Positions 2,738 through 55,490 of a DNA stretch of 64,000 nucleotides are shown here, one piece after another. The notes under the pieces are model-generated. The model was not told the origin of the DNA and searched no databases. It saw only the letters and a list, made by a program, of their open reading frames with translations. The number at the start of each line of letters is the position of its first letter. Within the stretch, counting starts at the first letter, position 1. This DNA is from Ignavibacteria bacterium (GTDB lineage Bacteria > Bacteroidota > Ignavibacteria > Ignavibacteriales > Ignavibacteriaceae). The DNA lies in the NCBI GenBank assembly GCA_021286645.1, contig JAJTBZ010000022.1, positions 1 through 64,000 on the forward strand, given 5' to 3'. Made by a program: the position numbers and the translations under genes.

Positions 2738-3321
2738 TTTAGAAATCTAAGCCCTTTCCAAGGTTACTTTCTTATATAGTGTACACCTAAAATTTTCTTA
2801 GGGTAAATTTTGAGCAGCCAGATTAATTATCATTTATTCTGATTTTTTCAAATTTCAGATTGATGTCGTGCCCCTTTTGCAAAATGAAAAAACCTGGAAT
2901 ATTTGAAACACAATACTTTTGTAATTGAAACCGCGTGAATTAAGTCCGGCTCACTTCCCGTTGCATCATTTACGAAATAGCTGTAGACTTTTGCTGTATT
3001 TAAATTTATATTTTAAAATTCTAGTCGTATTTACTTCAATTACGCTTACTAATTGCTGTCAATTTTTTTCCTTTTTCACAAACGATGAGTTGCAGCAGAT
3101 TTATCTTCATGGGAAACGAAATAATAACAAAGTATTTTCTTATTGAGGTCTTTTTTTTGAAAATGCAGTTTCTTCAACTTAGTATTTTATTTCAGAGTAT
3201 CTTTCACTATTTTTTAACTTGGCGGTGTTGAATTTTCGTAATTAAGACATATCTTTACGATTTGAGCAAATAAACCATTGCTTATTAGGTCATTTTTTAT
3301 AGCAATTAATTTCATCGGAAA
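2738..3321. other. Long AT-rich intergenic region
   Basis: No convincing gene. A 73-codon frame at 2925-3146 would need a TTG start, lacks a ribosome-binding site and has no family features. The region may carry a promoter for the acyltransferase at 3322 or be the remnant of a lost glycosyl gene. Confidence 0.4.
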
Positions 3322-4782: not shown

Positions 4783-4786
4783 GTGT

Positions 4787-5860
4787 ATGAACAAATCTAA
4801 GCTATTATTGATATGTATTTATTTTTTAGGGTTGACATCCTTTTTAATATTCCTTTTAGTAAATACTCCTCCATTCATGCATTGGTTAAATGATCGAAAT
4901 GCAGGCTATGGTGACTTGTATTCTCTCTGTAAAGTAAAAAATTTCAATGAAAAACTACCACCCCGGTTTAATATTAGCGAACTTCCTAAAAACGACGCAG
5001 ATATTTACTTAATTGGCGACAGTTTTTCGGGTATTGCTCGCGATTTTAAACATTTACCAATTCAATTAGGGGAAAAAACTGGGAAAAAAGTTGATGCTAT
5101 AATAGCCTCTGATGTTGATATCCGTTTTTTTTATCCCCAAAATTATCCAAGATTAATTCATTCTTCTCGAACTCGTAGAAAGATCGTAATTATTGAATGT
5201 GTTGAAAGGCAGATTCTGACGTACTATCAAAATTTTACAAACTACAAGCCTGAAGAATTCGTTTCTACTCCATACGCAAAAATTTCTGAGTTAGCAAACA
5301 AAATAAATATCCATTTATTCAGTCAAGCAGGGGCATTTTATCAATTCTTTTTCCTTAATAGTCCGGGTTTTTCCAGCGTAACCGAATTTTGGAATACATT
5401 TAAATTTAATAGATTTGGGACAATTGCAAAGGAGACGCCTGTTTATTCCAAAAATCCTCCTTTTATCTTTTATTTTGAAGATACAAAAAAAGACTTGGTA
5501 AAAAGTTTTTACGCAAATCACTCTGATTCAGTAATAAAAAAAACCGCTGAAAATATTGCCCATATTGGAAAAATTCTTCACGAAAATTTTAATGCCGAAT
5601 TGATATTTATACCCGTTCCGAATAAATATACAATTTATCACAAATTTGTAAACAATGATTCGTATGATCAGTTTTTGCCAAAACTCCAGACTGCATTGGA
5701 GTTGCGTGGGGTAGTAGTTGTAGATCTATATCATCCTTTTGTTAACTCAAACGAATTGCTGTACTATCCTACCGATACTCATTGGAACAGAAGAGGCATT
5801 CAAATTGCTGTTGAACAAACAAAGAAAACCCTTGATAGAATCTCGATTAATCAAAATTGA
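4787..5860 (+). CDS. AlgX/AlgJ-like SGNH-fold polysaccharide acetylation protein
   Basis: About 357 residues from the ATG at 4787. A TTG 48 bases upstream is in frame but overlaps the acyltransferase and would bury the membrane anchor. An N-terminal helix (about residues 5-26) suggests a periplasmic protein anchored to the inner membrane. The SGNH-like fold is seen in DIYLIGDSFSG (Ser79 as candidate nucleophile) and the C-terminal PTDTHWN block (Asp330 and His332), the standard D-x-H arrangement of AlgX/AlgJ proteins. These proteins complete O-acetyl transfer from the MBOAT partner to the glycan. The gene directly follows the MBOAT gene, so the pair is almost certainly one transcription unit. 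Confidence 0.85.
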   Translation: MNKSKLLLICIYFLGLTSFLIFLLVNTPPFMHWLNDRNAGYGDLYSLCKVKNFNEKLPPRFNISELPKNDADIYLIGDSFSGIARDFKHLPIQLGEKTGKKVDAIIASDVDIRFFYPQNYPRLIHSSRTRRKIVIIECVERQILTYYQNFTNYKPEEFVSTPYAKISELANKINIHLFSQAGAFYQFFFLNSPGFSSVTEFWNTFKFNRFGTIAKETPVYSKNPPFIFYFEDTKKDLVKSFYANHSDSVIKKTAENIAHIGKILHENFNAELIFIPVPNKYTIYHKFVNNDSYDQFLPKLQTALELRGVVVVDLYHPFVNSNELLYYPTDTHWNRRGIQIAVEQTKKTLDRISINQN

Positions 5861-5867
5861 TTAATCG
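5844..5867. repeat. Stem-loop overlapping the stop codon of the AlgX-like gene
   Basis: Positions 5844-5853 and 5858-5867 form a perfect 10-bp inverted repeat with a very short AT loop. It spans the TGA stop of the AlgX-like gene. The region beyond converges on the minus-strand ligase gene. No uninterrupted T-run follows, so it may be a weak terminator or an mRNA-stabilising hairpin. Confidence 0.4.
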
Positions 5868-6129
5868 GGATAATTATAAAAGTAGAACTTCTTTATAAAA
5901 ATAATAAACAGCCATAGTACTGCATATCGCTTTACCTCTCTGCCTTCTACAATTATTATTAGTATGAAGCAATTCGCGAAAGCAATAATTTTCTCGAATT
6001 GCCAGTATATATGCGATGAGAATATTGGTGAGTATTGTATACAAGCACCGGCAATAAAATTAAGAGACTTTTCCGGTACCTTTACCTTTTTTTTGATGAT
6101 CCGAGTAAAAAAACGGTCTGTTGTTCAAT

Positions 6130-7536
6130 TTACACACGTGATTCTTCCATATTTTGCGGGTTGGTACTATTGTCTATGAACCTAAGGAATGTACCGAAAA
6201 CGAACCAGAAAATAATCCCAAAATACAAGCCATCGAAAGTAGGTTCAACCATAGAGTGTATCAGGCAACCAATATACGAGCAAATACCACCCCATAAAAA
6301 TAATTTGTCGTTTAAATTGTGTACACGGATATACGCTTTTACAAGCGAATAAAAAAGGTAAAGTAGAAAAATGAAGTATAATAAACTTCCGATCAGTCCG
6401 GTTTCACCTAACATACCAAGTACTAAATTATGTGCGTGAACTCCATCTTTACTCTTAAACTTCATATAATAGCCAAGATTAACTAATCCAACTCCCTCTA
6501 TCGGATGTTCCGTTATTACAGTACCAATATCATTATATAAATTTACTCTGGAAAAATATGAGTCCGTTTTATTTGCTTCAGAAATCCGTTTACTAAGTAT
6601 ACTGGTAAACGGATTATATACAATTAGAAATCCCAATGATATCAGTATTATGAGGATAGGGAAAAAAGTTCGCAATCTAATAATCTTGAATAAAAAGATT
6701 AACAATGCAATCAATAAAGCAATAATGCCACCACGAGAAAGAGTCAATATCATTGTAGCCGACAAAGCGGTTAATATCAAGGAAAGTAATAATTTTCCTT
6801 TTATTGTACCGGAAGATAATAAGCTTGATAATGTAATGGGTATAATTAGCACAAAAAAAGCAGCCAGGTAATTAGATTTACCCCATGAATTCCCAACTAA
6901 GTTTTTTCGTATAATCAACATTGCCATGCTTTGTTTCAAATTCCCCAACTGACTAATGTAATAGATTTGTTGTAATGCCAGAAATAATCCCCAAAGAATT
7001 ACTGCTGTGATTAAAAGATTTTTTAGTTTTCTGGAAGAAACCACATTGTAAGCAAAAACACAACTTATAAAACTAAAGAAATGATTATGCCATCCTGCAA
7101 TTGCCCGCATGCGATCGTGAGCCAGCAAACTACCTAATAATGTCCAGCAAATAAAAAGAGTGTATGCCCAAAAATATTTCGGGAATTTTGTTTTCTCCGG
7201 CCAACCAACAATCAGACGAATTAGCAACACAAACAATCCAAATGTAAAGGTTAGATCCACAGACGACATACCAAAGGATTTCCCCCCTGTCTTCACGCCG
7301 CCAAAAGAACCAATTAACATTGAAAATAAAATAAAAATAAGCAGATGAAAAGGCTGCTTGTAAAAATACAAGTAACCCAAGACCAGAATAACCAAAGAAA
7401 AAAAAGTAACGCCTACAATAACATCGTAGTGTAATGATAAAACGAGTAGAAGTATCTCAAATACTAACAATAATGAGAATTTGCTCAGAATCCTTGATTT
7501 CATCAAACCGATGTTGAAGGTTAAAAATCGCTGCAC
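6130..7536 (-). CDS. O-antigen ligase/polymerase family membrane protein (Wzy_C domain)
   Basis: About 468 residues with 10-12 predicted helices. The large periplasmic loop carries the family pattern: GNSWGKSNYLAAF near residue 215 and the GVHAHNLVLGMLGETGLIG segment near residue 365, whose histidine is the conserved position of WaaL/Wzy_C proteins. Such enzymes either ligate finished glycan to lipid A-core or polymerise repeat units, and sequence alone does not separate these. It lies 9 bases downstream of the Wzz-like gene in the same direction. The start is ambiguous: GTG at 7536 or ATG at 7503, neither with a clear ribosome-binding site. With the flippase it supplies the back end of a Wzx/Wzy pathway. 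Confidence 0.85.
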   Translation of the reverse strand: MQRFLTFNIGLMKSRILSKFSLLLVFEILLLVLSLHYDVIVGVTFFSLVILVLGYLYFYKQPFHLLIFILFSMLIGSFGGVKTGGKSFGMSSVDLTFTFGLFVLLIRLIVGWPEKTKFPKYFWAYTLFICWTLLGSLLAHDRMRAIAGWHNHFFSFISCVFAYNVVSSRKLKNLLITAVILWGLFLALQQIYYISQLGNLKQSMAMLIIRKNLVGNSWGKSNYLAAFFVLIIPITLSSLLSSGTIKGKLLLSLILTALSATMILTLSRGGIIALLIALLIFLFKIIRLRTFFPILIILISLGFLIVYNPFTSILSKRISEANKTDSYFSRVNLYNDIGTVITEHPIEGVGLVNLGYYMKFKSKDGVHAHNLVLGMLGETGLIGSLLYFIFLLYLFYSLVKAYIRVHNLNDKLFLWGGICSYIGCLIHSMVEPTFDGLYFGIIFWFVFGTFLRFIDNSTNPQNMEESRV

Positions 7537-7545
7537 AGTATTAAT

Positions 7546-8787
7546 TTATTTTCTATTACCAATGAAGAAGAGAGATTTTAAAGGCTCTATAACACCCTCT
7601 TTATAATGGTTATAGCGAGCCTCATCTGTTTTGAATTCCTGATACGAATGCTTAATAAGCGAGATAGTAACTGAAAAAAAGAATGTTAACAATGACGCCA
7701 ATCCAATTATTATTGATCGGTGCGGCGATGATTTCTTTTGGGCTGGAACTGCTTTATCAAGTACCAAACAAATAGGCATATCTTTTTGTTCATCAATTTT
7801 TGTCTGCTCATATACAGGCATTAAATAAGCAAAAAGCCGATTTTTAAACTCAACTTCTCGAATCAGTCGAATGCTCTTGATCGCAATATCCGGCACATTT
7901 TCAAATGCTGGAACAAGTTGGGTTAAATTATCCCCGCTCCCCCAATTGGAACCATATTTCAAGGCGGTTAACCTTTTTTCTAACTCTTCTATCTTTATCT
8001 CGGCCGATCGAATAATCATAGAATTATCACCTTGCATTTTCTTCAATACTTCAAGCTGGATTTGCTGTAATGTCAATTCAGATTTTAATTCGGCAGCCTC
8101 TTTTATACCGGCTTTGGTTTGTTCGTCAATTGATAGGATATGATATTTATGATTAAAAGCTCTTAAACTATCTTCGGCAGCTGCAAGCTCTTTCTTTACA
8201 TCATTACATCGTTTTTCAAGAAAATTTTTATTGGAGCTCGCTTCTCTCGTTCCTAACTCACTACTAATAATATTTAACTGATCTACAAAGTAATTAGCCA
8301 TTTGTGCTGCTCGTACCGGATCTTTGTCAGTTACTTTTATTGTTAAATTCCCTTCATCCTCTACACTAAATTTAACATTGTCATTTAGTTCGGATAATAC
8401 ATCTTCTATTGGTTTTTTTGGTGAGATATGATACACATTTCGTATATCAAATTTTTGGGCAACAGCTTCCAAAGCACGTCGGCTTTGTAAAATCATTAAA
8501 TAGCTCATTGATTCATCAGATGGTCCTCCAAGACGCCCCAATGTTTTTGAAAGATCCTGTATCCGACCTGGTAACGAAGCACCGATATCACCAAGTAGGC
8601 TATTTCTTTTTTTCGAGGGAACTATTGAAGTAGTAGAAGTATACCAATTGTCCATCATTAAGGCTATAACAATTGCGGCAAGTGTTACTATAACAGTATT
8701 TGTTATAATGAATCTTTTTGATTTGACTATAGCAATTATTAGAGTTTCAAAACTTTTCTCTTTTTGTATATTAGCCGCTTCCTGCAT
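7546..8787 (-). CDS. Wzz/GNVR-type polysaccharide chain-length determinant
   Basis: 413 residues with the polysaccharide co-polymerase layout: an N-terminal helix (about 27-47), a long periplasmic region rich in coiled coil (about 165-290), and a second helix (about 355-378) followed by a short cytoplasmic tail. The N-terminal half has the usual Wzz pattern of a short basic cytoplasmic start followed by W-Y-S/T residues just outside the membrane. It lacks a C-terminal tyrosine kinase domain. It sets the modal length of the exported glycan together with the polymerase downstream. The ATG at 8787 is preceded by AGAGG (8794-8798), and this gene leads the minus-strand pair. Confidence 0.85.
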   Translation of the reverse strand: MQEAANIQKEKSFETLIIAIVKSKRFIITNTVIVTLAAIVIALMMDNWYTSTTSIVPSKKRNSLLGDIGASLPGRIQDLSKTLGRLGGPSDESMSYLMILQSRRALEAVAQKFDIRNVYHISPKKPIEDVLSELNDNVKFSVEDEGNLTIKVTDKDPVRAAQMANYFVDQLNIISSELGTREASSNKNFLEKRCNDVKKELAAAEDSLRAFNHKYHILSIDEQTKAGIKEAAELKSELTLQQIQLEVLKKMQGDNSMIIRSAEIKIEELEKRLTALKYGSNWGSGDNLTQLVPAFENVPDIAIKSIRLIREVEFKNRLFAYLMPVYEQTKIDEQKDMPICLVLDKAVPAQKKSSPHRSIIIGLASLLTFFFSVTISLIKHSYQEFKTDEARYNHYKEGVIEPLKSLFFIGNRK

Positions 8788-11514: not shown

Positions 11515-11629
11515 ATTCTGTGTCGATCCTACGGATCTTAATAAGATTTTTGGGTTGCTGTTGCCTACAGATATATCGTGCCTATGGCACTTAGGAACTT
11601 CCCTGATAGTTTTCATTTCTGCTGTTGAT
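11515..11629. repeat. Spacer element of the hairpin repeat family (array 1, copy a)
   Basis: Opens with the GATCC-TAC-GGATC stem-loop (11525-11537) and carries a second stem-loop, GTGCC-TAT-GGCAC, at 11578-11590. It is followed directly by a repeat unit. Confidence 0.85.
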
Positions 11630-12323
11630 GGTTTCGATACGCCTTCGGCTGATCAATCACCCGGTTCTGAAATGCGAAACGGCGTGCCACGAAAGGTCAT
11701 TGAGTGTCCGGCCAGATGCGGCAAAACCAACGCCGTGTAAAACCCGCGGCCGGATGTATCGAAATGACCGGCCTTCGATACGCCTTCGGCTACGCAATCA
11801 CCCAGTTCTGAAATGCTACACAGCGCACCGCAAAAGGTCATTGAGTGTCCGGCCAGATGCGGCAAAACCAGCGCCGTGGTAAAACATAGGCCGGATGTAT
11901 CGAAATGACCCGGGCAATTAATAGATTCTGTGTCGATCCTACGGATCTTTTTATGATTTTTGGGTGATTGTTTTCTACAGATATATTGTGCCTCTGGCAC
12001 TTAGGAACTTCCCTGATAGTTTTCATTTCTGCTGTTGATGGTTTCGATATGCCTTCGGCTACTCAATCACCAAGTTCTTAAATACAAAACAGCGCGCCAG
12101 CGAAAGGGTCATTGAGTGTCCGGCCCGCTGCGGCAAAACCAACGCCGTGGTAAAACCAGGCCGGATGTATCGAAATGACCGGCCTTCGATACGCCTCCGG
12201 CTACTGAATCACCAAGTTCTGAAATGCTAAACAGCGCTCCAACGAAAAGGTCATTGAGTGTCCGGCCCGCTGCGGCAAAACTAACGCCGTGTAAAACCCG
12301 CGGCCGGATGTGTCGAAATGACC
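11630..12323. repeat. Hairpin repeat array 1 (four units)
   Basis: Four units of about 135-140 bp lie at 11630-11769, 11774-11910, 12041-12180 and 12185-12323, with a spacer element at 11911-12040. Each unit starts with TTCGATACGCCTTCGGC and ends with CCGGATGTATCGAAATGACC. Inside are two stem-loops: hairpin A around GCC-TTC-GGC, and hairpin B closed by GGTCATT/AATGACC and TCCGGCC/GGCCGGA. Units that directly follow another unit lack the outer 5' arm of hairpin A. The next 278 bases to the gene at 12602 hold no supportable feature. This is the left of two arrays bracketing the secreted-protein cluster. Confidence 0.92.
11911..12040. repeat. Spacer element (array 1, copy b)
   Basis: Begins CGGGCAATTAATAGATTC, then the GATCC/GGATC stem-loop and the stem-loop GTGCC-TCT-GGCAC at 11988-12000. 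The loop differs from copy a while the stem is kept. Confidence 0.85.
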
Positions 12324-12601
12324 CGGAGGGAAACAGAAAAGACTCATTATCATTTTAGTTTTCTCATAAAAATCAGGGTTACCGGTTCAGGTGAGTTGCA
12401 GGCGGATTATTTAACCTGGTGCGATGAACCGAAGAATTCCTCCTCTAAATAGCGCAGGGGGAAAAGAAAATCAGGCTTTTCTATTTGTACTGCAAAATAA
12501 AATAGATTATATTAAAATAGAGAGTTTTCTTGTTCGTTTAGTACCCTTTAGTGCCAAGTCTTCGAATTCTATAATTATATAATAAAAATTCAGAGGGATC
12601 T

Positions 12602-13471
12602 ATGGAAGAGTATGAACAATGGTTAAACAAAATACCCGAGAACCGCAACTATTTACCCACTAAAGACGTTATCCTTAAATGGGCGGCAGTGCGGCATAAA
12701 ACTGCCGATAAGGCCGGCGCAAAAGCATTCCCGGGGTTATTTTCAATTCACAAATTTCGAACAGACCATACACTATTCTGGTGTGCAATTACAATTGAAG
12801 CTTTGATAGCAATATTCGTCCTTTATAAGGTGAGCTGGAATTACATGGTGATGATTATTCTGGGAGTCTCAATAATTTTGGACCTGGCATGCGCGTATTT
12901 TGGTCACTCATCCCAATCGGACAGATGTATTGCCGACAACAAATTGTACTATGAAAAAGATGGGTCTGAGAAAGAAAGGCTTCGTGATACAATTACACGC
13001 GCGAAGATCGTGCATGGCATTGCATCGTTTTTAATTATTGCGATGTTCGTGGGAAAAGTATTGGGAATACTGTGGCTCTTCCCCGGTATGAGCGCGGGAA
13101 TATTACCTTTCCTGCTTAGCGCCCTCTATTTCCTCGTGGCGGTTGTACATATAACAACAACGGGTTTTTATTTCTCCGGCGTTTCATTAATTCGTTCGTT
13201 AAAGCGCGAGTTTAAGAAACAGAATGAAACCGCTGCTACTTATATTAAGGAACCACTACCCTGCCAGTTTAACGCGGATGTTGACCTTGTTCCCGATACT
13301 GCTTCCGATAAAAAACACATACTGAATAAGGGTGCAGCAAGTGAATTTATATTGAATTGTTGGGGAATTCTTTTTGATTCGGATATTACTGTTTTGCTGG
13401 ATAAACAAAAACCCGGTTCGCAGCAGATCTATGCCGAAAAGCTTAAAGAAATTCAGATCTCCCGTTTTTAA
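12602..13471 (+). CDS. Four-helix membrane protein of unknown function
   Basis: 289 residues. A cytoplasmic-looking N-terminus (1-55) is followed by four predicted helices at about 58-77, 80-101, 135-160 and 163-190, then a roughly 95-residue soluble tail. I recognise no family. An AGGG ribosome-binding site precedes the ATG. It is the first gene of an eight-gene co-directional cluster (12602-22084) in which every product is predicted to be membrane-bound, lipid-anchored or secreted, and it is the only one with several internal helices. The lipoprotein gene starts 21 bases after its stop. It could be the inner-membrane component of an envelope assembly, which is inference from position only. 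Confidence 0.8.
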   Translation: MEEYEQWLNKIPENRNYLPTKDVILKWAAVRHKTADKAGAKAFPGLFSIHKFRTDHTLFWCAITIEALIAIFVLYKVSWNYMVMIILGVSIILDLACAYFGHSSQSDRCIADNKLYYEKDGSEKERLRDTITRAKIVHGIASFLIIAMFVGKVLGILWLFPGMSAGILPFLLSALYFLVAVVHITTTGFYFSGVSLIRSLKREFKKQNETAATYIKEPLPCQFNADVDLVPDTASDKKHILNKGAASEFILNCWGILFDSDITVLLDKQKPGSQQIYAEKLKEIQISRF

Positions 13472-13492
13472 CGCAGCGTAAATGAGGAAATT

Positions 13493-14632
13493 ATGAAATA
13501 TAACCGATATGTAGCTCTTGCTCTGGGAGCATTTTTTAGTATGTTTTTTATTGGTATAACCGGTTGTGAAACCGGTTGTAGAACCGGTGAACCGGATGTT
13601 GATGAGGCATCGAAAGAAATAACCGTTAACAACAAAGTTGATTATTCGCTTAACTTTGTGGTCGATTTCAAGGTAACGAAAGAAGATCAGCATAACATAC
13701 TATTATTAAATAAAACGATTATTTCAGCAGAGGATTCGAAAACCGCGTACACCCCGTTGAAAAAAATTAAGTTTACCCGATTGTACTCGAGTCATGAAGA
13801 TCGTGACACTTCTGCTGTTATGGAAATTGACCCCTGCCCAAGCTGGGTGCAAATGAATAACGCGGATAAAAATGTTTTTGGCATTGAAACTGTTTTGTTA
13901 ACAAAAAATATTAAGCCGTTTCTGAATGAAAGCACTATTCTTACGGCCGATTACTCCGATGCGAAAAGTTTAAAGAGTTACCTCGATAAACTGGAATCGC
14001 AAGAGACCAAATGTTTTGTTTATAAACCAACCGAGGATGCTGGAAACAAAAAATCCGATATGGTATTTACCGATATGAAAGCACTGCAAACTGCAATGGC
14101 AGCATACCTGGATAAACAAAACCGTGAACAGAAACCAATGCATATTGCACTGATCTACTCGAAGAAGGCAGAGTTCCCTTATCCGGAGCAACCGGCATCG
14201 AAACCTGCGAAAGAAGTAAAAAAAAAAGAGGATATCCACGCGAGCGGTAAAAACGGTCTTGCTGGAAATAAGGGAGAACCCTTATCTCAAAAATCCTCGG
14301 GAAATAAAGTAGAACCCAAGCTGCAGAACCCTGCGGAAAATACCAACTCCGGCAGCGGGACAACCGGTACCGGACTAAGGCCAGGCGGCTGGAAACAGCT
14401 TAAGTTCGCTAACCATGACCAGTATTATGGTGAAATTAAAGACGGTAAAATGGATGGCGTGGGCGAATATCATTTCGCGCAGGGCCAGGTAATTTCATCG
14501 CGCGATTTGAAAGCGCGCAGAGCAGAAGCGGGAGATGTGCTTAAGGGTACCTGGCATAATGGCGTGTTTTCTTCCGGCAAACTCTATGACTCAAACAATA
14601 AGTTTAAGCAAACGATAGTAATAGGCGAGTAG
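13493..14632 (+). CDS. Lipoprotein with a C-terminal MORN-like motif
   Basis: 379 residues. The N-terminus is a lipoprotein signal ending in a lipobox-like GITGC (Cys at about 25), so the mature protein should be lipid-anchored. A central 220-residue domain is unrecognised. A low-complexity Lys/Pro/Ser/Gly linker covers about 235-300. Near residue 310 a segment YYGEIKDGKMDGVGEYHF matches a single MORN repeat, followed by a second weak repeat-like stretch (LKGTWHNGVFSSGKLY). MORN repeats act in membrane or protein contact. An AGGA-type ribosome-binding site precedes the start, and the next gene begins 8 bases after the stop, so this is clearly an operon member. Confidence 0.8.
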   Translation: MKYNRYVALALGAFFSMFFIGITGCETGCRTGEPDVDEASKEITVNNKVDYSLNFVVDFKVTKEDQHNILLLNKTIISAEDSKTAYTPLKKIKFTRLYSSHEDRDTSAVMEIDPCPSWVQMNNADKNVFGIETVLLTKNIKPFLNESTILTADYSDAKSLKSYLDKLESQETKCFVYKPTEDAGNKKSDMVFTDMKALQTAMAAYLDKQNREQKPMHIALIYSKKAEFPYPEQPASKPAKEVKKKEDIHASGKNGLAGNKGEPLSQKSSGNKVEPKLQNPAENTNSGSGTTGTGLRPGGWKQLKFANHDQYYGEIKDGKMDGVGEYHFAQGQVISSRDLKARRAEAGDVLKGTWHNGVFSSGKLYDSNNKFKQTIVIGE

Positions 14633-14640
14633 CTGATTTT

Positions 14641-15765
14641 ATGGGGAAAATGTTTTGGTTGCTTTGCGGGTATGTATTTTTCATTTCCTGCAATACAATA
14701 TTTGCTCAAAATGAATGCACCTCGCAATATTTGAGTCAGGTTTTTCATCGGCTGCCGGCTGAATGCCGGCAGGCCCGATCTAATGATACCTTAGCCTATT
14801 TTACCCGCGTAACCGATAAAATAATGCCGGGCCGTACCATGCCTGTATTATATTATTATACGCGCAGCCAGCTAAGTGATATCGGCATCAGATTATGCGA
14901 TTCTTCCTCGCTGCGGGCAATTGTTAACAACGAAATAGTTTGCCGCTTTTTTGAAAGGAAAATGCTTGAACTGTTGGTGAACTTAAGCAGTGAAACCATT
15001 GCCGATAACGAGCAGATTCACTTGCTGGTAAACAGGAACCAGGTAATTCAGCGCAAGCAATTATTTTTGTTCTGCGAAACCATGATTCGGGCTACCAAAC
15101 TTGAATATCATCGCGATAGCCTGTTCGCGCGCTTGGTAGGGGTTTCGGGTAATAATGTAGCTGAATTCCAATTTCGTGTATCCAACTACCTGTTGCGGGC
15201 TCACGATAAGAGCGAGTTGGATTCGTTAATGTATAAAGAGCTGACATCCTTCCATACCGGTTCACAGACTCCCAAAGAAACGATCCCGGGGTTGTATAGT
15301 GCACCGGATAGTATTATTGTTTCAAAGGGTAAATTTCTTTTTACCGAAAAACTTAATCAGGATCTATACCACGGAATTTTGAGAAAAAAAGAATATCTCA
15401 TATTCAGCCGGAGTTATTTCCCGGAAAGTTTTTGCAATCTTCTTCAGCATCCATCATTGTCAGATAGCATCAGTATAGAAGTGCAACATTATCAGTACAA
15501 CGGAAAAGCGCCGCTGTTTACTATGGCCTTTCAGGACTTCGCTGCTTATTTTTCCGATCATGAATTCTATACCGGTATTATCCGTTCGGCTGCAGATAAA
15601 TTGCAGGTACTGGTAATTGTCTATAATAAGGACCTTAATGTGTACCACTTCTTTACCACACAACCGGATGCTGAACAGTTCTTTAAAGGAAAGAAAAAAT
15701 TTCATATTGATTTTCACACGAATATCCCGAGCGATACGCTTGGTGATATTACCGGAGTACGGTAA
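14641..15765 (+). CDS. Secreted protein of unknown function
   Basis: 374 residues with an N-terminal signal peptide (hydrophobic 4-20, cleavage likely after IFAQ near residue 23). No known domain is recognised. Cysteines at about 26 and 40 might pair in the periplasm. The middle third is predicted largely helical, and the last 120 residues look like an alpha/beta region. The gene is tightly placed between the MORN lipoprotein and the next secreted gene (39 bases apart) and shares their direction. It is presumably periplasmic or outer-membrane associated and works with them. Confidence 0.75.
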   Translation: MGKMFWLLCGYVFFISCNTIFAQNECTSQYLSQVFHRLPAECRQARSNDTLAYFTRVTDKIMPGRTMPVLYYYTRSQLSDIGIRLCDSSSLRAIVNNEIVCRFFERKMLELLVNLSSETIADNEQIHLLVNRNQVIQRKQLFLFCETMIRATKLEYHRDSLFARLVGVSGNNVAEFQFRVSNYLLRAHDKSELDSLMYKELTSFHTGSQTPKETIPGLYSAPDSIIVSKGKFLFTEKLNQDLYHGILRKKEYLIFSRSYFPESFCNLLQHPSLSDSISIEVQHYQYNGKAPLFTMAFQDFAAYFSDHEFYTGIIRSAADKLQVLVIVYNKDLNVYHFFTTQPDAEQFFKGKKKFHIDFHTNIPSDTLGDITGVR

Positions 15766-15804
15766 GTTCTTTACTAAATATGAGAACGGGAAGAAAAGAT
15801 TACA

Positions 15805-16626
15805 ATGTATAACACCAGACAAATAGTTGCTTACTTGCTGATTGTGATAACAATGCAGCTATGTGCCCAGGGGACGGATAGTTTATCGGAAGAGAATATA
15901 AAACTTTCCGGAGATTACTTTTGGGATGAAGCGTATTCACCCAATAAACAAAATGCAATAACACAGGCTACCGATAAGCTTATGGGAATTATTGCCGATT
16001 CAGTAGCAAAAAATACAATTACTGAGCAGGTAAAAGAAGTAATTACACCGGAAGTAAGGTATTTGTATTTTTCCTGGGGACAAAAAACGCAGGCTATTGC
16101 CTTTGTTGAAAAAGCACGCATTCAGGTAATTATGGAGAAAAACAAGGCACTACAGTATTTTCCTATAAAAATAAGTCATGAAAAGAATGCTGCTACTGAA
16201 GATGTTGTTAAAACCCCAACAGCAGTAAATAAAAAAGCAACTGAATTGGATTCGGGTGAAAAGGCAGTGCAACCACCCGTTATAAACGGAAGCCCAAATA
16301 TTCCTGGTGAGAGGCAGAAGAGTAGTAGCAATAAAAAATCTGACAGGCTGCGGTCGCGGTTTTCGGCTATACAGAGCAGTGATGTTTTATTGAAAGAGTT
16401 GGAGAACTCGAGCGACATTGGAGATCTTTCCTACGGCAATCAAGAAGATTTTAATAATCCCGCTGCTTGCGATATTATTATAATGAACAGTGATGCACGC
16501 ACGGTTGAGATGTATATAGTGCAAAATGCAGGGAATTATATCGATTTCCAAAGTGGCATGGTGATAAATGATTTTATGGGAAAAGTGAAAGGTAAAAAAG
16601 TTATATGGCTCGTGTATTTCGATTAA
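15805..16626 (+). CDS. Secreted protein with an LPP20-like N-terminal region
   Basis: 273 residues with a signal peptide (about 1-21, ending QLCAQ). Residues about 30-115 follow the pattern of Bacteroidota LPP20-like proteins: a short beta start (KLSGDYFWDEAYS), a helix rich in Ala/Asp and Lys (NAITQATDKLMGIIADSV), then strands ending FVEKARIQVIME. A disordered linker (about 120-190, Lys/Ser/Pro rich) leads to a small C-terminal domain. In related Bacteroidota such proteins lie next to PEGA-domain genes, as they do here. The family link is by remembered pattern, not by search. The 3' end overlaps the next gene by 22 bases, indicating translational coupling. Confidence 0.7.
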   Translation: MYNTRQIVAYLLIVITMQLCAQGTDSLSEENIKLSGDYFWDEAYSPNKQNAITQATDKLMGIIADSVAKNTITEQVKEVITPEVRYLYFSWGQKTQAIAFVEKARIQVIMEKNKALQYFPIKISHEKNAATEDVVKTPTAVNKKATELDSGEKAVQPPVINGSPNIPGERQKSSSNKKSDRLRSRFSAIQSSDVLLKELENSSDIGDLSYGNQEDFNNPAACDIIIMNSDARTVEMYIVQNAGNYIDFQSGMVINDFMGKVKGKKVIWLVYFD

Positions 16627-17642
16627 TAGTTTTCTTTACTCTTTTAACCGGCCTGTTTGGCGGCTTGGTGTTTGCACAGAATTCTTCAGATAATTCCGGT
16701 GTATATAATAAAACAACTGTTACCCTGACCGGATTACCGAATTCAGTGCTGTTAGAAAAAATGCAGAAGAATGCTACAGCATTTCTCTCGGAACTCAACG
16801 CGGCATTTGCAGGGAACCGGGAACCCTCCGTGCCGGGTTCGGTGATGAATGATGAGGGAAAAGAAATTCTTGCTTCATTATGGGAAACCAGCCCCTTCCG
16901 AAGTATTAAGACTAAAATAATCGATCGGATAATACTTGTACGGACAACGCGTGGCATGAAATATCAGTTAAGAAATATTCCGGTGTATATTAAAGATGTG
17001 GTATCGTATGAAAAAGATTCCGAAAGCCAGCAGGCTGCCGATCACTCGCAGGAAATAAGCCTAACATTTTCGAAAACAGGAGAAATTGATAATATATCAT
17101 ATACGTTGGATTATACCCGTAGCGATTTGTTAAAACGGGATACCACTTCGTTATTAGAATTTCAACGGCGGCAATTTGTATTAGAGTTTTTAGAACGACT
17201 GAGGACTGCGTATAACCGGAAGGATACTGCCTTTCTCCAAAAAGTGTACAGCGATGATGCTCTGATAATAACGACAAAAGAAATTAGATTAGAGAAGAGT
17301 GGCGATCTCGGGATAAAGGGTCAGGTAATAGTTATTTCCCAAAAAGTAACAAAGCAGGTATATTTAAAAAGCCTGGCCGAGAAAATATTCAAATACAATA
17401 AGTTTATTAATGTCAGGTTCGAAGATATTAAGATTGTTATGAATCTGAAGTATCCCAATATATACGGGGTTAACCTGAAGCAATTCTGGAATTCCTCAAA
17501 TTATAAAGATGCAGGCTATCTTTTTCTGTTGGTAGATTTTAAGAACGAGGATGCACCCATGATACATGTGCGTACATTCCAGCCGGATAGTACAATAAAA
17601 TCTCCAGGTGATATTATTGATATGGGTTCGTTTAATTATTAA
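16605..17642 (+). CDS. Secreted protein with a possible NTF2-like domain
   Basis: 345 residues. The signal peptide is clear (hydrophobic 7-22, cleavage near FAQ at 25). Residues about 175-225 (LEFQRRQFVLEFLERLRTAY, then NRKDTAFLQKVYSDDALII) resemble the opening helix and strand of NTF2-like domains, in which a helix is followed by a short N-x-K-D-xx-FL-x-x-hydrophobic segment. I give this low weight. The ATG lies inside the preceding gene and the two overlap by 22 bases. It is followed 50 bases later by the first PEGA-domain gene. It is probably periplasmic and part of the same envelope assembly. Confidence 0.7.
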   Translation: MARVFRLIVFFTLLTGLFGGLVFAQNSSDNSGVYNKTTVTLTGLPNSVLLEKMQKNATAFLSELNAAFAGNREPSVPGSVMNDEGKEILASLWETSPFRSIKTKIIDRIILVRTTRGMKYQLRNIPVYIKDVVSYEKDSESQQAADHSQEISLTFSKTGEIDNISYTLDYTRSDLLKRDTTSLLEFQRRQFVLEFLERLRTAYNRKDTAFLQKVYSDDALIITTKEIRLEKSGDLGIKGQVIVISQKVTKQVYLKSLAEKIFKYNKFINVRFEDIKIVMNLKYPNIYGVNLKQFWNSSNYKDAGYLFLLVDFKNEDAPMIHVRTFQPDSTIKSPGDIIDMGSFNY

Positions 17643-17692
17643 TCGGCTTGGTTGAGTTTTCGGATGACTGATACGGGAAGGAAGAAAAGCCA

Positions 17693-19639
17693 GTGGTGAA
17701 CTCAGCGGGTGTATGGATCTGTGTGCTACTGTTCACTGCCGCTATGTCTGTATATGGCCAGGACAGCCTTGGTTCACTGCGGGTAGAGGAGAATGCATTG
17801 CAGCTGTTTAATGAAACGGATGCTATGATTAAGATTTATACTGAATTGGAGCTAAGCTTTGAGTGCTCAACTTTACCAATGAATGCTGAAAATATCCATG
17901 AAAATTCAACGGGGAAGCAGCGCGTATATTTTGTACTGATAAATCCATACCAGGAAACAATAAGCCTTAATATTATAGCAAAAGGATATAGCCCCCTTTT
18001 ATTGCAACTTAAAGGACTGGGAGCGAAACGTACATGGGTATATTATATATTTGCACGGCCGCATATCCTTAGCGATGTAGGCAATATTTTTCTTTCATCG
18101 GATCCGCCGGGCGCGCATATATCTATACGCGGGCAGCAGCCATTTCCTGCTCAAACTCCCTACTATTTTAAGAACCAGACGGCAATGGGCTATTGGGTTA
18201 CTTTAACAAGAGAAGGGTATAAGGATACGACATTTATAATGCAGGTACAACGCGATACATCGTTAACCATGAATGTAAAAATGGCGCCACTTAAGGGTAT
18301 GCTGCATATATTTACCAGTCCCGAAAATAAAATTTTCGTTGATGGAAACGAATGCCCGGAGTGCAACAGTCAGCCGATTCTATTGGGAGAAAAAAACAGG
18401 GCGATACTGGTAAAGAAAAAATACCATAAGCCATTTTACAAAATGGTATCATTGCATAATCTTCACGATACATTATGGGTGCGTGACGGACAGGAATTGC
18501 AGCCGTGGATAGGAGTGATCGCGGTAGCAACTGACCCGCCGGGGGCTGCGGTATTTGCCGATGGGCAATATTGGGGAAACACACCAGTGCAGAAATCTGT
18601 AGCAGCAGGTAAATACAGGATGATGCTGAGTAAACCCGGGTATGATACACTGGTTGAGACAGTTGAATTGCTGGAAGAAGAAACTTTTATGTTATCCAGA
18701 TCTTTGAATGTGCAATCCGGCTTATCAATAGATTCACGGCCAGCAGGCGCTGATGTTATGATTAACGGCAAAAAATTTGGACAAACCCCCTTGCATGTTT
18801 CTTTACCCGAAGGCGATTATTCAATTGCGATCGAAAAGTCCGGCTATAAACCCGAACATCTGGAAAAGCATGTGAACTCGATGGAAGCTTTTCATTATAC
18901 GGCAATATTGAATAAACTTTGCAGATTAATTATTAAACGTAACGAAGGTGTGGAGTTAACTATTAACGGGAGACCTGCGGGGACACTCGATCAGGAGCGT
19001 GAGTTTTTACTTGAAGCGGCAACATACTCTATAACGGCGCGTCTGGATACCGCCCGGCTTACAAAAAAAATTACGATGAATGCTGATGAAGATAATAATG
19101 TAGAATTCGATTTTCCCCGAAAGGAAGATGGTTCATCGTGGATAAGCCGGCTGCGATGCTGTACTGCACCGGCCGGACGTGGCATGTATGTAAGTTTTCA
19201 GCAGGCATTTCGCGGCAGTGAAACCCGTCAGGGGGTTGACCACATGGTTCAAAATATGGCTGGAATTGGATACCGGTTGCAGGAAAATAACTATGAATTA
19301 ATGGCAGATGTAAGCTTCTTTGAACTGAGCCGGTCCCCGAATTTAATCTCACCGGTTAAAGAAGGCAGTCAAACCGAGAGATTTATAAACATGCTGTTTG
19401 CTTGTCGTTGCGGGTACGTTCCGGTTAGTTTTGAGAATGGTGTTTCGGTTTCATGCGGTGTATTTGCCCAGTTGGCAATTTTACGCGGCGATCGGGGTTA
19501 TAGCCTTCCGGATATAGGTTATTACGCCAATATTTCCTGCAATGTTTTTTCATTTCTGCAATTAAGCGCGGGTTACCAAAATTGTGTAAGGAAGAATATT
19601 TTTATTAATGGCATAAATTTTATGGCGGCATTTCAATGA
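17693..19639 (+). CDS. PEGA-domain envelope protein with a C-terminal beta-rich region (paralogue 1)
   Basis: 648 residues beginning at GTG 17693, behind a purine-rich AAGGAAG site. A signal peptide (1-22) is followed by an N-terminal domain opening ENALQLFNETDAMIKIY, like that found before PEGA repeats in Bacteroidota. Repeats follow: a degenerate one at about 140-200 (SSDPPGAHISIRG), and clearer ones at about 275-330 (ATDPPGAAVFADGQYWGNTP) and 340-395 (DSRPAGADVMINGKKFGQTP). PEGA motifs bind carbohydrate or other envelope partners. The last 150 residues alternate in polarity and end in aromatic-rich strands, suggesting an outer-membrane barrel or barrel-like cap. It overlaps the next gene by ATGA, and that gene is its paralogue. 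Confidence 0.85.
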   Translation: MVNSAGVWICVLLFTAAMSVYGQDSLGSLRVEENALQLFNETDAMIKIYTELELSFECSTLPMNAENIHENSTGKQRVYFVLINPYQETISLNIIAKGYSPLLLQLKGLGAKRTWVYYIFARPHILSDVGNIFLSSDPPGAHISIRGQQPFPAQTPYYFKNQTAMGYWVTLTREGYKDTTFIMQVQRDTSLTMNVKMAPLKGMLHIFTSPENKIFVDGNECPECNSQPILLGEKNRAILVKKKYHKPFYKMVSLHNLHDTLWVRDGQELQPWIGVIAVATDPPGAAVFADGQYWGNTPVQKSVAAGKYRMMLSKPGYDTLVETVELLEEETFMLSRSLNVQSGLSIDSRPAGADVMINGKKFGQTPLHVSLPEGDYSIAIEKSGYKPEHLEKHVNSMEAFHYTAILNKLCRLIIKRNEGVELTINGRPAGTLDQEREFLLEAATYSITARLDTARLTKKITMNADEDNNVEFDFPRKEDGSSWISRLRCCTAPAGRGMYVSFQQAFRGSETRQGVDHMVQNMAGIGYRLQENNYELMADVSFFELSRSPNLISPVKEGSQTERFINMLFACRCGYVPVSFENGVSVSCGVFAQLAILRGDRGYSLPDIGYYANISCNVFSFLQLSAGYQNCVRKNIFINGINFMAAFQ

Positions 19640-21714
19640 AAGATAATAATTCAATTTCTCAATGGAAATTTCAGTTCCTGTTAATTGTTGTTCTGTTCAT
19701 TCTCAGTATAGACGCGTGGGCGCAGGAAACACTGGAATATAAAACGGTAAATGAGAATGCGTTACAAATAAAGAATGAAAATGATGCGCTTGCTAAAATA
19801 TATTCAAATCTTGAATTAAGTTTTGAGTGTTCCACGTTGCCATTGAACGGGAACGATGTGGAAGTTAAATTTTCGAATGGAATGTATACGTATTATGTTT
19901 ATCTAAAGCCGATTGCGCACACATGCAACCTGATAGTTAAAGCCAATAAGTGCGTGCCGCTTTCTATTGTTATAAAAGATATTGTGCCGAAAGCTGTGTT
20001 CGTGTACAGCGTTTATACGAAACAGGAAAACACCGGGGTAGATGTTACAGATGCAGTGGGTGATTTTGATCTTGTTTCTGTACCTTCCGGTGCGGAAATT
20101 TCGATTAAGGGGCAACCGGCATTTAACGGGCATACCCCGTATTCATTTCACGATCAGACGGCTATACGGTATTTGGTTACCCTGCGGAAACCTGAGTATT
20201 ATGACACAACGCTTGTTATTGATATTCGGAAAAATAAAAAACAAAATCTACTGGTGCCGCTTAGAGCGCGGTTCGGATTCCTGACACTTAATACATCCCA
20301 GGAAAATACTCTGTTTGTTGACGGTACTGAGATGCAATATCAATCGGGAAGTAAGATTAAATTATTCGAAGGGAAGAGAAAAATTACCATTGCCAGAAAA
20401 TACTATCAGCCATATATCGATTCACTGGAGATAGCAGGCGCTATAAAACCCGTTGAATTCGTCAGAAATGTTACATTGCCGCCATATAAAGGCAGGCTTT
20501 TAGTGAATACATTCCCTTCGGGCGCGAGCGTCCTAATTGACGGGGTTCTGAAAGGGTTTACACCATACAATGATGAACTTAATGCAGGGGCATATAATAT
20601 CGATATAAAAAAGGAATTATATAAAGACGTACACAAATCGATAGAGTTTTTTAAGGACGATGCAGTAGGAATTGAAGAAAAACTACAAAGATATGGTACG
20701 CTAAACCTTCGCAGTTCACCCTCGGGCGCAATGGTATATTCCAACGGCGAACTGCTGGGAACTACTCCATTGGAAAAAGACCTTCCGGCAGGTAGTTATC
20801 AGCTCAAAGTAGTAAAAGAGCATTACCGTACTGAAACAGTTCACTGTGATATTAGTTGGGATTTGATTTCGAATTCTTATGTACAACTACCTGCTAACGG
20901 TAAATTGATTATTCGTGGTGCCCCCGGTGCATCGTGTTCCATCGATCGGAAATTCAAGGGGCAGTTAAACGGTGAAATGGAAATTGAATTGCCGCCGGGC
21001 GATCACAAATTGTGGTTATGGAGATATGGGTATGATGACGAGGAAATATCCTTTACCCTTGAACCGGAAGTAAAGACGCTGGATGTGGAACTGACGAAAA
21101 GCGAGGGTAAGTTTTTCCGATGGAACTTAACAGGAAATGAGCGCATTCAAAACCTTACGCCTTCCTGGGGCGGCTATATAAAATGTCATTTTTCAAAACT
21201 CACGCCGGAGTTCCTCTCCTCGGCTGCAAAATTTCCTGTGCACAGTTCAGCCGGTGGTATGTGGCCATTGGGTACGGGAGTTGCAATTTGGTTCGAACCC
21301 TTTATGATGCAATTGGATTTTAATTATCTTCAGATAATAGCACAAGATATAAAAGGTGGAGACCGGGTGATGAATTTTGCTGATTCGGCCATGTTTCACG
21401 TGTATTTTGGTACAGCAAAATTTGGTTACACCCCTTTCGTTTTATTCGAGAGGATTTATCCCACATTTGGTATTATGGGGCAATACACAAATGCTACAAT
21501 CAGTGATCATTTTCTTAAGGATGCGTATAGCCCTGAACTTGGGGGAACGCAAACGCAGCGGTTTGATTTCGGGTACTACACTGATGTAATGTTTAAGCTT
21601 GGGTCTGTTATTTCGTTATCAGTTGGTTATGAAATACACCCGCCGCCAAATAGCTTTGAAAATTCATACTATATTAACCTGATAATTACCACGAGGTCTA
21701 ATTATGATAAATAG
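19636..21714 (+). CDS. PEGA-domain envelope protein with a C-terminal beta-rich region (paralogue 2)
   Basis: 692 residues, starting in a four-base ATGA overlap with paralogue 1. After a signal peptide (about 10-30) the N-terminal domain repeats the paralogue's pattern almost word for word (ENALQIKNENDALAKIY, then LELSFECSTLPLNG). PEGA repeats are seen near residues 145-200 (SVPSGAEISIKGQPAFNGHTP), 290-345 (NTFPSGASVLIDGVLKGFTP) and 355-410 (RSSPSGAMVYSNGELLGTTP). A Gly/Pro-rich degenerate repeat follows, then a beta-rich C-terminus of about 180 residues (WGGYIKCHFSKL onward). The pair arose by tandem duplication and then diverged substantially. It overlaps the next lipoprotein gene by 11 bases. 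Confidence 0.85.
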   Translation: MKDNNSISQWKFQFLLIVVLFILSIDAWAQETLEYKTVNENALQIKNENDALAKIYSNLELSFECSTLPLNGNDVEVKFSNGMYTYYVYLKPIAHTCNLIVKANKCVPLSIVIKDIVPKAVFVYSVYTKQENTGVDVTDAVGDFDLVSVPSGAEISIKGQPAFNGHTPYSFHDQTAIRYLVTLRKPEYYDTTLVIDIRKNKKQNLLVPLRARFGFLTLNTSQENTLFVDGTEMQYQSGSKIKLFEGKRKITIARKYYQPYIDSLEIAGAIKPVEFVRNVTLPPYKGRLLVNTFPSGASVLIDGVLKGFTPYNDELNAGAYNIDIKKELYKDVHKSIEFFKDDAVGIEEKLQRYGTLNLRSSPSGAMVYSNGELLGTTPLEKDLPAGSYQLKVVKEHYRTETVHCDISWDLISNSYVQLPANGKLIIRGAPGASCSIDRKFKGQLNGEMEIELPPGDHKLWLWRYGYDDEEISFTLEPEVKTLDVELTKSEGKFFRWNLTGNERIQNLTPSWGGYIKCHFSKLTPEFLSSAAKFPVHSSAGGMWPLGTGVAIWFEPFMMQLDFNYLQIIAQDIKGGDRVMNFADSAMFHVYFGTAKFGYTPFVLFERIYPTFGIMGQYTNATISDHFLKDAYSPELGGTQTQRFDFGYYTDVMFKLGSVISLSVGYEIHPPPNSFENSYYINLIITTRSNYDK

Positions 21715-22084
21715 AAATTTACTCTTTATCATTGCAATAATATGCTCTCTGATTGTAATTTCCGGCTGCGAGGCAATGCAGGATCCGAATGACTATCTGG
21801 AGATGCCCGGTGAAATACAGGTCGGGTACTGTACGCGTCTGAATTCAGGCAAATATGAAATTTCACTTTCCTGGACAATGCCTGCCGGAGGATATTCATT
21901 TAATGTTGTCAGGAGTGGAAATAGTTACACATCCAATACAATTTCTAATCTGTATTATGTTGATAGCGGGCTGAGTCAGGGAACGTACGAGTATAAGATA
22001 TATGCTTTAAAGAATACTGATAGATCTTTGCCGGCATACATTAAGATTAAAATTAATTATAGCACGTATGAAATTACCCGGTGA
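21704..22084 (+). CDS. Small lipoprotein with a fibronectin III-like fold
   Basis: 126 residues. The N-terminus is a lipoprotein signal with lipobox VISGC (Cys at about 22). The rest, about 100 residues, looks like one Ig/FN3-like beta sandwich: alternating strands, YEISLSWTMPAGGYSFNVVR resembling the B and C strands, and YVDSGLSQGTYEYKIYAL resembling the F-G region. GAGG precedes the ATG. It overlaps the second PEGA gene by 11 bases and ends the eight-gene cluster, just before repeat array 2. It likely sits in the outer membrane with the PEGA proteins, which is inference. Confidence 0.75.
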   Translation: MINRNLLFIIAIICSLIVISGCEAMQDPNDYLEMPGEIQVGYCTRLNSGKYEISLSWTMPAGGYSFNVVRSGNSYTSNTISNLYYVDSGLSQGTYEYKIYALKNTDRSLPAYIKIKINYSTYEITR

Positions 22085-22280
22085 AATAACCGAACTTTTC
22101 TTTTGTGAGTATTAAATAGATGCGCATTCGTCGCCGTTGGTGATTTCGATACGCCTTGGGCTGATCAATCACCGGGCCCTTAAATGCAAAACAAGGCACC
22201 ACCAAAGGTCATTGAGTGTCCGGCCAGATGCGGTAAAGCACGCGCCGTGGCAAACATTGGCCGGATGTATCGAAATGACC

Positions 22281-22420
22281 CGGGCAATTAATAGATTCTG
22301 TGTCGATCCTACGGATCTTTTTATGATTTTTGGGTGTCTGTTGCCTACAGATATATCGTCCCCATGGGACTTAGAAATGCTGCTGTGGGGTTTTCATGTT
22401 TCTTTATATTCGTCGCTGTT
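22281..22420. repeat. Spacer element (array 2, copy c)
   Basis: Same layout as the array 1 spacers, but the second stem-loop (22358-22370) reads GTCCC-CAT-GGGAC: both sides of the stem have changed together relative to GTGCC/GGCAC. Confidence 0.85.
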
Positions 22421-22562
22421 GGTGATTTCGATATGCCTTCGGCTACTCAATCACCCAGTTCTGAAATGCGAAACGGCGTGCCACGAAAGGTCATTGAGTG
22501 TCCGGCCAGATGCGGTAAAACTTACGCCGTGTAAAACCCGGGCCGGATGTATCGAAATGACC

Positions 22563-22702
22563 CGGGCAATTAATAGATTCTGTGTCGATCCTACGGATCT
22601 TTTTATGATTTTTGGGTTGCTGTTGCCTACAGATATATCGTCCCCATGGGACTTAGAAATGCTGCTGTGGGGTTTTCATGTTTCTTTATATTCGTCGCCG
22701 TT
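22563..22702. repeat. Spacer element (array 2, copy d)
   Basis: Near-identical to copy c over its length, with stem-loop GTCCC-CAT-GGGAC at 22640-22652. It probably arose by recent duplication of the unit-plus-spacer block. Confidence 0.85.
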
Positions 22703-22996
22703 GGTGATTTCGATACGCCTTCGGCTACTCAATCACCCAGTTCTTAAATACCAAACAAGGCACCACCAAAGGTTATTGAGTGTCCGGCCAGATGCGGCAA
22801 AACTTACGCCGTAGTAAATATTGGCCGGATGTATCGAAATGACCGGCCTTCGATACGCCTTCGGCTACTCAATTACCCGGTTCTTAAATGCGAAACGGCG
22901 TGCCACGAAAGGTCATTGAGTGTCCGGCCGGATGCGGCAAAACCAACGCTGTGGTAAAACCAGGCCGGATGTATCGAAATGACCGGCCTTCGTTAC

Positions 22997-25025: not shown

Positions 25026-25107
25026 TGCGGAGAGGGGGACTCGAACCCCCACGGATTGCTCCACCAGATCCTAAGTCTGGCGCGTCTGCCAATTCCGCCA
25101 TATCCGC
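25026..25107 (-). tRNA. tRNA-Leu (anticodon UAG)
   Basis: The minus strand folds as a class II tRNA of 82 nt: acceptor GCGGATA pairs with the segment ending CTCCGC, discriminator A. The D arm contains GGCGGAATTGGCAGACGC, the anticodon loop reads CTTAGGA (anticodon TAG), there is a variable arm, and the T arm has GGTTCGAGTCC. CCA is not encoded. The long variable arm and the UAG anticodon give leucine. Confidence 0.97.
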
Positions 25108-55399: not shown

Positions 55400-55490
55400 A
55401 TTCTCAAAATACCCGATATCCGTGTAAATTTAAAATGAAATATTAAATTTACACGGTAGAGTCAGTCCTTTTACTGCTCAATCGCCGGCC

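Follow-up and report, generated by a model that had tools for sequence, protein, structure and literature searches.

Gene organization of the envelope cluster

The window analyzed here comprises the first 64,000 nucleotides of contig JAJTBZ010000022.1 from an Ignavibacteria bacterium (assembly GCA_021286645.1), and it contains a run of eight genes, g1 to g8, whose products are predicted to belong to the cell envelope (Table 1). The original prediction, made from the sequence letters, described a single co-directional cluster of nearly abutting or overlapping genes, and this arrangement is borne out, with all eight open reading frames (ORFs) on the plus strand and intergenic distances from g1 to g8 of 21, 8, 39, -22, 50, -4, and -11 nucleotides. 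The GC content of the cluster is 0.41, compared with a mean of 0.43 for the window. Promoter and terminator scans were uninformative. The signals and lipoboxes claimed for the products were largely recovered: lipoboxes are present in g2 (...FIGITGC) and g8 (...LIVISGC), and direct reading reveals signal-peptide-like N-termini in g3 to g7, but a hydropathy scan of g4 gave no peak above threshold. In Pfam searches of g1 to g8 nothing scored above the curated cut-off except the PEGA domains in g6 and g7, and NCBIfam searches of the same proteins gave nothing above cut-off. None of g1 to g5 or g8 passes the cut-off of any curated family.

Table 1. The eight genes of the envelope cluster, with positions in the window
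Gene	Position	Strand	Product	Features
g1	12602..13471	+	Inner-membrane protein, 289 aa	Four hydrophobic helices, then a soluble C-terminal part (ORF, hydropathy)
g2	13493..14632	+	Lipoprotein	N-terminal domain of ~200 aa, linker, MORN-like C-terminal domain (~residues 272-378)
g3	14641..15765	+	Secreted protein, 374 aa	Family C (C1)
g4	15805..16626	+	Secreted protein, 273 aa	Family D (C4/C5)
g5	16605..17642	+	Secreted protein, 345 aa	Family E (C0), best-conserved member
g6	17693..19639	+	Secreted protein, 648 aa	Family P; GTG start; three PEGA domains
g7	19636..21714	+	Paralogue of g6, 692 aa	Same architecture as g6; 28% identical to g6
g8	21704..22084	+	Lipoprotein, 126 aa	Lipobox; FN3-like by eye

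Conservation of the g2 to g7 gene set

The proteins are assigned to families designated B (the C-terminus of g2; C6), C (g3; C1), D (g4; C4/C5), E (g5; C0), P (g6 and g7; C2), and T (tubulin-like; C7). A scan of a species-level genome collection with the single g5 sequence found nothing. Scanning with a g5 profile, with one genome per species across bacteria and archaea, yielded at least 360 relatives, many of them in gut Prevotella and Bacteroides, which defines a conserved envelope gene set whose core proteins do not reach the cut-off of any Pfam or NCBIfam model. The best 79 of these 360 loci were examined and derive mostly from Prevotella, Bacteroides, Muribaculaceae, Odoribacteraceae, and Parabacteroides, and also from Melioribacteraceae/Ignavibacteriales and Neomarinimicrobiota. 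Among 198 genomes of the window's own phylum, the g5 search identified 17 genomes with a relative and the g5 profile 18. No g5 was found in five other sampled genomes of the window's own family, and g3 was likewise found in none of the sampled members of that family.

Gene order was analyzed in 99 loci, which were compared all against all by BLAST and searched with profiles. The order B-C-D-E-P is common to about 95 loci in Bacteroidota, Ignavibacteriota, and Neomarinimicrobiota, and the window genes g2-g3-g4-g5-g6/g7 match C6-C1-C4/C5-C0-C2 in this order. Of the 98 loci with E, among which four are duplicates drawn by two routes, 77 have family C, 55 have D, and 83 have P; C lies immediately upstream of E or of a D-E pair in 71 (36 as C-E and 35 as C-D-E), and P lies immediately downstream of E in 75. 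Because these counts start from E, the linkage was checked a second time by whole-genome profile searches with C and D. Family C was found in 8 of the 198 genomes, and its seven strong cases all fall within the 18 genomes with E, where they adjoin E (hypergeometric P ~1e-7). All D matches scoring over 65 bits are located at E loci, while the weaker matches are mostly generic PKD matches, which occur in 112 of the 198 genomes. In four loci D and E form one protein, with the D-like part at residues ~13-290 and the E-like part at ~440-636, which argues for physical contact between D and E. The co-occurrence suggested as a check on the original prediction therefore holds for g2 to g7, found in the same order in many genomes and phyla and with fusions of g4 to g5, but not for g1 and g8. 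The linkage of g2 to g7 as a conserved set is well supported.

Proteins of the putative periplasmic core

The C-terminus of g2 is shared with family B of Bacteroidales (best BLAST E=5e-14). The MORN-like character ascribed to g2 is a weak point of the original prediction, the MORN match (E=0.0015) being below the curated cut-off. A weak similarity of g2 to the lipoprotein of a TssR-like operon (see below) was equalled by 23 of 1000 shuffles. The N-terminus of g2 searched alone gave no vWA match, and there was none in g1 to g8; a vWA domain in g2 is not supported. g3 is matched over its full length by BLAST (best E=3.6e-21) and has no Pfam family. g4 is comprised of a possibly LPP20-like N-terminal region and a conserved C-terminal region, and the PKD-containing middle of the longer D relatives, which bear PKD-like domains, is absent from it. 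Independent family D profiles match g4 with E=1e-14 and 1e-23. The LPP20 model (PF02169) gave no Pfam match in g4, and profile-profile comparison of the g4 family with LPP20 proteins gave a probability of 78.

An alignment of 17 homologues was built for g5, and its structure was modeled with AlphaFold2 from a 52-sequence alignment. The model has a predicted local distance difference test (pLDDT) value of 88 and a predicted template modeling (pTM) score of 0.82, and consists of an N-terminal alpha/beta domain and a C-terminal domain at residues 183-330 with a predicted NTF2-like fold. The fold assignment is based on pLDDT values mostly above 85 across this region and on structural matches with Z scores of 13-15 (up to 15.2) and a root mean square deviation of 1.9. 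Csd6, Pgp2, and Bd1075, which are periplasmic cell-wall proteins with NTF2-like domains, are among these matches, with many unrelated NTF2-like proteins scoring equally. Dioxygenase beta subunits, which occupied the top Foldseek rows, were rejected as an identity for g5, as these matches merely reflect the NTF2-like fold. Searching the PDB by sequence with profiles of g5 and g3 returned nothing significant.

PEGA proteins of family P

The PEGA repeats read in g6 and g7 are confirmed by PF08308, with E values of 1.1e-42 (144 bits) and 7.9e-39 (132 bits), respectively, against a gathering cut-off of 20.8 and with three Pfam stretches in each protein. g7 also matches the P protein of locus L033 (BLAST E=1.8e-54). 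Family P proteins have a conserved N-terminal beta domain, which is the family signature, followed by a spacer and a beta-rich C-terminus; the spacer varies, being made up of PEGA domains in some members and TPR/Sel1 repeats in others. In a run of the related locus L046 (L046:747-19882), many PEGA-containing P genes surround one D-E pair, which suggests local amplification of P.

The AlphaFold2 model of g7 shows confident beta domains and PEGA repeats at about residues 45-435, and pLDDT values below 50 for residues 487-692. The alignment used for g7 included Sel1-bearing members, and its PDB matches are TPR/Sel1 proteins; these members probably impaired the model of the C-terminal part. Counts of amphipathic strands are only slightly above those of shuffled sequences for both g6 (5 compared with 3.5+/-1.4) and g7 (7 compared with 3.9+/-1.5). 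A C-terminal phenylalanine is an outer-membrane beta-signal. Phenylalanine is the last residue in 53 of 111 complete P proteins, compared with 1 of the 165 remaining ORFs of these loci that look exported; g6 ends in ...AAFQ and g7 in ...NYDK, neither with a terminal phenylalanine. The beta-barrel C-termini originally proposed for g6 and g7 are thus in keeping with the common phenylalanine ending of their relatives, but receive no direct confirmation from the g7 model, and we regard the C-terminus of both proteins as a putative outer-membrane barrel.

Membership of g1 and g8

g1 has no signal peptide, no Pfam family, and no recognized signaling domain. It occupies the position where Prevotella loci carry a transmembrane gene and a tubulin-like gene, and shows no similarity to the transmembrane family of those loci (C8). 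The one clear homologue of g1 (L151:9473-10363; 23% identity over 284 aa) lies in a different operon of a genome of the same class. This operon (L151:2039-10363; G039:C5) encodes, besides the g1 homologue, a lipoprotein, a possible outer-membrane protein, a TssR-like vWA protein (PF17643 E=3.9e-14, TssR_VWA 2e-13), an ABC ATPase, and a permease, and no tail genes were seen in it. It may be related to the source from which the membrane complex of the Bacteroidota type VI secretion system (T6SSiii) arose. g8 had no BLAST match in the 99 loci, and its FN3-like reading is a weak point, the sole match being X25 at E=0.001, below the curated cut-off. Analogous small lipoproteins are often encoded downstream of P in relatives (L036, L038, L045, and L049-L051). 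The assignment of g1 and g8 to the cluster is by position and is not supported by linkage.

Association with FtsZl1 tubulin-like proteins

In 23 loci, including those of Xylanibacter brevis (L128) and Hoylesella loescheii, the conserved set is located directly 3' of a gene for a ~1030-aa Tubulin_2 protein (PF13809; E=2.5e-48 in L128 and 2.3e-50 in L067), which in L128 has a C-terminal GYF domain. A small transmembrane protein is usually encoded upstream of the Tubulin_2 gene, and T is directly followed by B in 22 of the 23 loci. B combines a zinc ribbon in the cytoplasm with a single transmembrane helix in these loci, whereas in the window the MORN-like C-terminus is carried by a lipoprotein. 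On the E tree the tubulin-linked loci require 4 changes, compared with 21 when labels are shuffled, and all lie within one group of 34 rows with a support of 83. Kinase-like ORFs (C19) are found near some core loci, and in other Bacteroidales loci the upstream genes are of the Sel1 or Sel1-caspase type together with DUF4384-like ones (C10, C13). In L060:5142-9244 and similar Prevotella loci, C-E-P is immediately preceded by DUF4384-like genes and a Sel1-repeat caspase (PF00656 E=7.6e-19), which replace the tubulin.

FtsZl1, the family to which these Tubulin_2 proteins belong, was placed by Makarova and Koonin in 2010 at the center of a predicted multicomponent membrane-remodeling system, with gene neighborhoods tied to membrane, periplasmic, and outer-membrane components and with Bacteroides caccae FtsZl1 in their alignment (PMC2875224). 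The claim of an undescribed system therefore requires qualification: the core has no family match above cut-off, but its Bacteroidales form adjoins FtsZl1/Tubulin_2, whose neighborhoods were described in that study.

Flanking repeats and other features of the window

The eight-gene run is flanked by arrays of a dispersed, non-coding repeat of 141/282 nucleotides (core GGCCGGATGTATCGAAATGACC) at window positions 11515-12335 and 22119-22996, which the original prediction did not mention. Further arrays (53616-54187 and 55488-56009) flank a lone AAA-type ATPase gene at 54236-55399. Roughly a dozen genomic sites carry the repeat, often where a contig ends, and it has no Rfam match. Horizontal acquisition of the cluster through the repeats was not concluded: the GC content of the cluster is near the window mean and the repeats are found at many genome loci. 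They may be incidental to the cluster. Two flagellin-like genes that are almost identical but lie on separate contigs (L139:7429-8283 and L145:4255-5109) are each near a repeat array. At 1232-8787 the window contains polysaccharide-type genes (by eye flippase-, MBOAT-, ligase-, and chain-length-like) with a GC content of 0.32-0.35, compared with ~0.45 for most of the window, which suggests a different origin for this segment. A tRNA gene (Rfam RF00005) is located on the minus strand at 25026-25107.

Proposed role of the cluster

We interpret the cluster as a tubulin-free variant of an uncharacterized trans-envelope apparatus or scaffold of Bacteroidota and related phyla, a reading to which we assign a probability of roughly 0.55. 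That the products act in a shared complex is the likely part of this interpretation. In such a complex, P would be anchored in the outer membrane and would use PEGA as a spacer that extends into the periplasm. C, D, and E would form the periplasmic core with D and E touching, and the MORN domain of B would connect this core with the inner side. B of Prevotella may be tied to the tubulin-like protein by its transmembrane helix and its zinc ribbon in the cytoplasm; in the window organism, the inner-membrane end is probably supplied by g1, and g2 would be lipid-anchored. The function is the least certain step, and we propose tentatively that the apparatus holds, positions, or remodels the envelope, its most likely job being to hold or position the inner and outer membranes, and the cell wall, at particular sites for envelope remodeling and not catalysis. 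A broader view is rather doubtful, namely that the set represents an ancient, self-standing bridge of a new kind between the two membranes, built from C-D-E as a periplasmic core and from outer-membrane proteins with PEGA spacers, that became coupled to a tubulin-like GTPase in one gut Bacteroidales lineage, so that a cytoplasmic polymer could exert its effect on the outer membrane.

Several observations weigh against the trans-envelope interpretation. g1 and g8 are not conserved alongside the rest of the cluster, the g6/g7 barrel is not resolved by AlphaFold2, g5 of the window forms a long branch on the E tree, and to our knowledge no biochemical function has been established for PEGA. Gene linkage and fusion are signs of association and do not show that membranes are bridged. 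There is also no Tubulin_2 (PF13809) match in the window genome, whose assembly is 99% complete, and two Tubulin_2 genomes of the same phylum are without the E family. The last two findings together indicate that the tubulin is a lineage-specific partner and that the envelope core is independent of it elsewhere, so that the envelope part exists without a tubulin. In the literature we found no experimental data on any member, and nothing relevant on PEGA together with LPP20, MORN, Bacteroides, or tubulin.

Alternatively, the genes could encode a secretion or surface-assembly machine, with P as outer-membrane export or anchoring barrels, C, D, and E as periplasmic chaperones, and downstream large FN3/PKD proteins or small lipoproteins as cargo. 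The giant exported protein (2000-3000 aa) or small lipoprotein found after P or E in several relatives (L035, L049-L051), the PKD-like domains of D relatives, and the position of g8, a small lipoprotein after P, fit this explanation. However, no ATPase and no channel family was recognized, the giant proteins are missing from most loci including the window, and large FN3/PKD proteins are frequent in these phyla, and we consider such a machine improbable. Somewhat less probable again is a surface or periplasmic complex for stress sensing or adhesion, in which PEGA and FN3 domains would bind a ligand or the cell wall and g1 would signal inward, the tubulin, kinase, and caspase relatives being output variants. 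The occurrence of the same core beside varied cytoplasmic or regulatory partners (tubulin-like C7, kinase-like C19, and Sel1 and caspase with DUF4384 in C10/C13) is typical of modular sensing systems, but neither a known sensor domain nor, except for the caspase of relatives, a defense-family match was found, and g1 itself lacks a recognized signaling domain. A known anti-phage defense system was rejected, as PADLOC gave no match for g1 to g8.

It is very unlikely that the cluster is a remnant or a relative of the membrane complex (TssNQOPR) of Bacteroidota type VI secretion. T6SSiii likewise joins a polytopic TssN, a PKD-bearing TssP, and a vWA lipoprotein TssR (PMC10781749), and the g1 homologue heads an operon with a TssR-like protein, but g1 has about four helices compared with five in TssN, and no tail genes accompany it in the cluster. 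Membership in T6SSiii itself was ruled out by the lack of TssR in the window genome and of any Tss family match in g1 to g8 (TssN was not searched genome-wide). The notion that unrelated envelope genes share a region through phylogenetic inertia, for which the lack of g5 and g3 in sampled relatives of the window's own family could speak, is already contradicted by the same order across phyla with different neighbors, the fusions, and the restriction of C and D to the vicinity of E genome-wide.

The gene set offers the FtsZl1 tubulin-like proteins of Bacteroidales likely partners in the periplasm and the outer membrane. This bears on a question raised by a reviewer in 2010 of how a cytoplasmic FtsZ relative fits with periplasmic and outer-membrane proteins (PMC2875224). 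The system is testable in its cultured carriers, Xylanibacter brevis, Bacteroides rodentium, and Hoylesella loescheii.

Comparison with known systems

The PEGA domains of g6 and g7 are common to LIC10124-type PEGA lipoproteins (NF047815), but the two proteins score 41 and 50 bits and miss the equivalog cut-off of 650; unlike the LIC10124 type, they have their own conserved N-terminal domain and their own operon context. The C-terminal domain of g5 has the same predicted fold as the Cds6_C/NTF2-like periplasmic domains of Csd6, Pgp2, and Bd1075, whereas no transpeptidase/carboxypeptidase catalytic domain was found in g5, and general NTF2-like proteins match equally well or better, with a Z score of 15 compared with 13-14. 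With the T6SSiii complex the cluster shares a general plan of a polytopic inner-membrane protein, periplasmic proteins, and a lipoprotein, as well as the g1 homologue in the TssR-like operon; it differs in having no Tss family match, no TssR in the genome, and no contractile tail genes in the cluster. A further likeness is to the FtsZl1 operons of Xylanibacter brevis, Prevotella, Muribaculaceae, and others, where the B-C-D-E-P set in common with the window directly follows FtsZl1. In contrast to these operons, Tubulin_2 is absent from the window genome, neither a vWA nor a GTPase gene is recognized in the cluster, and g2 is a lipoprotein without a zinc ribbon or internal transmembrane helix. 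The FtsZl1-type tubulin is also missing from most g5 loci.

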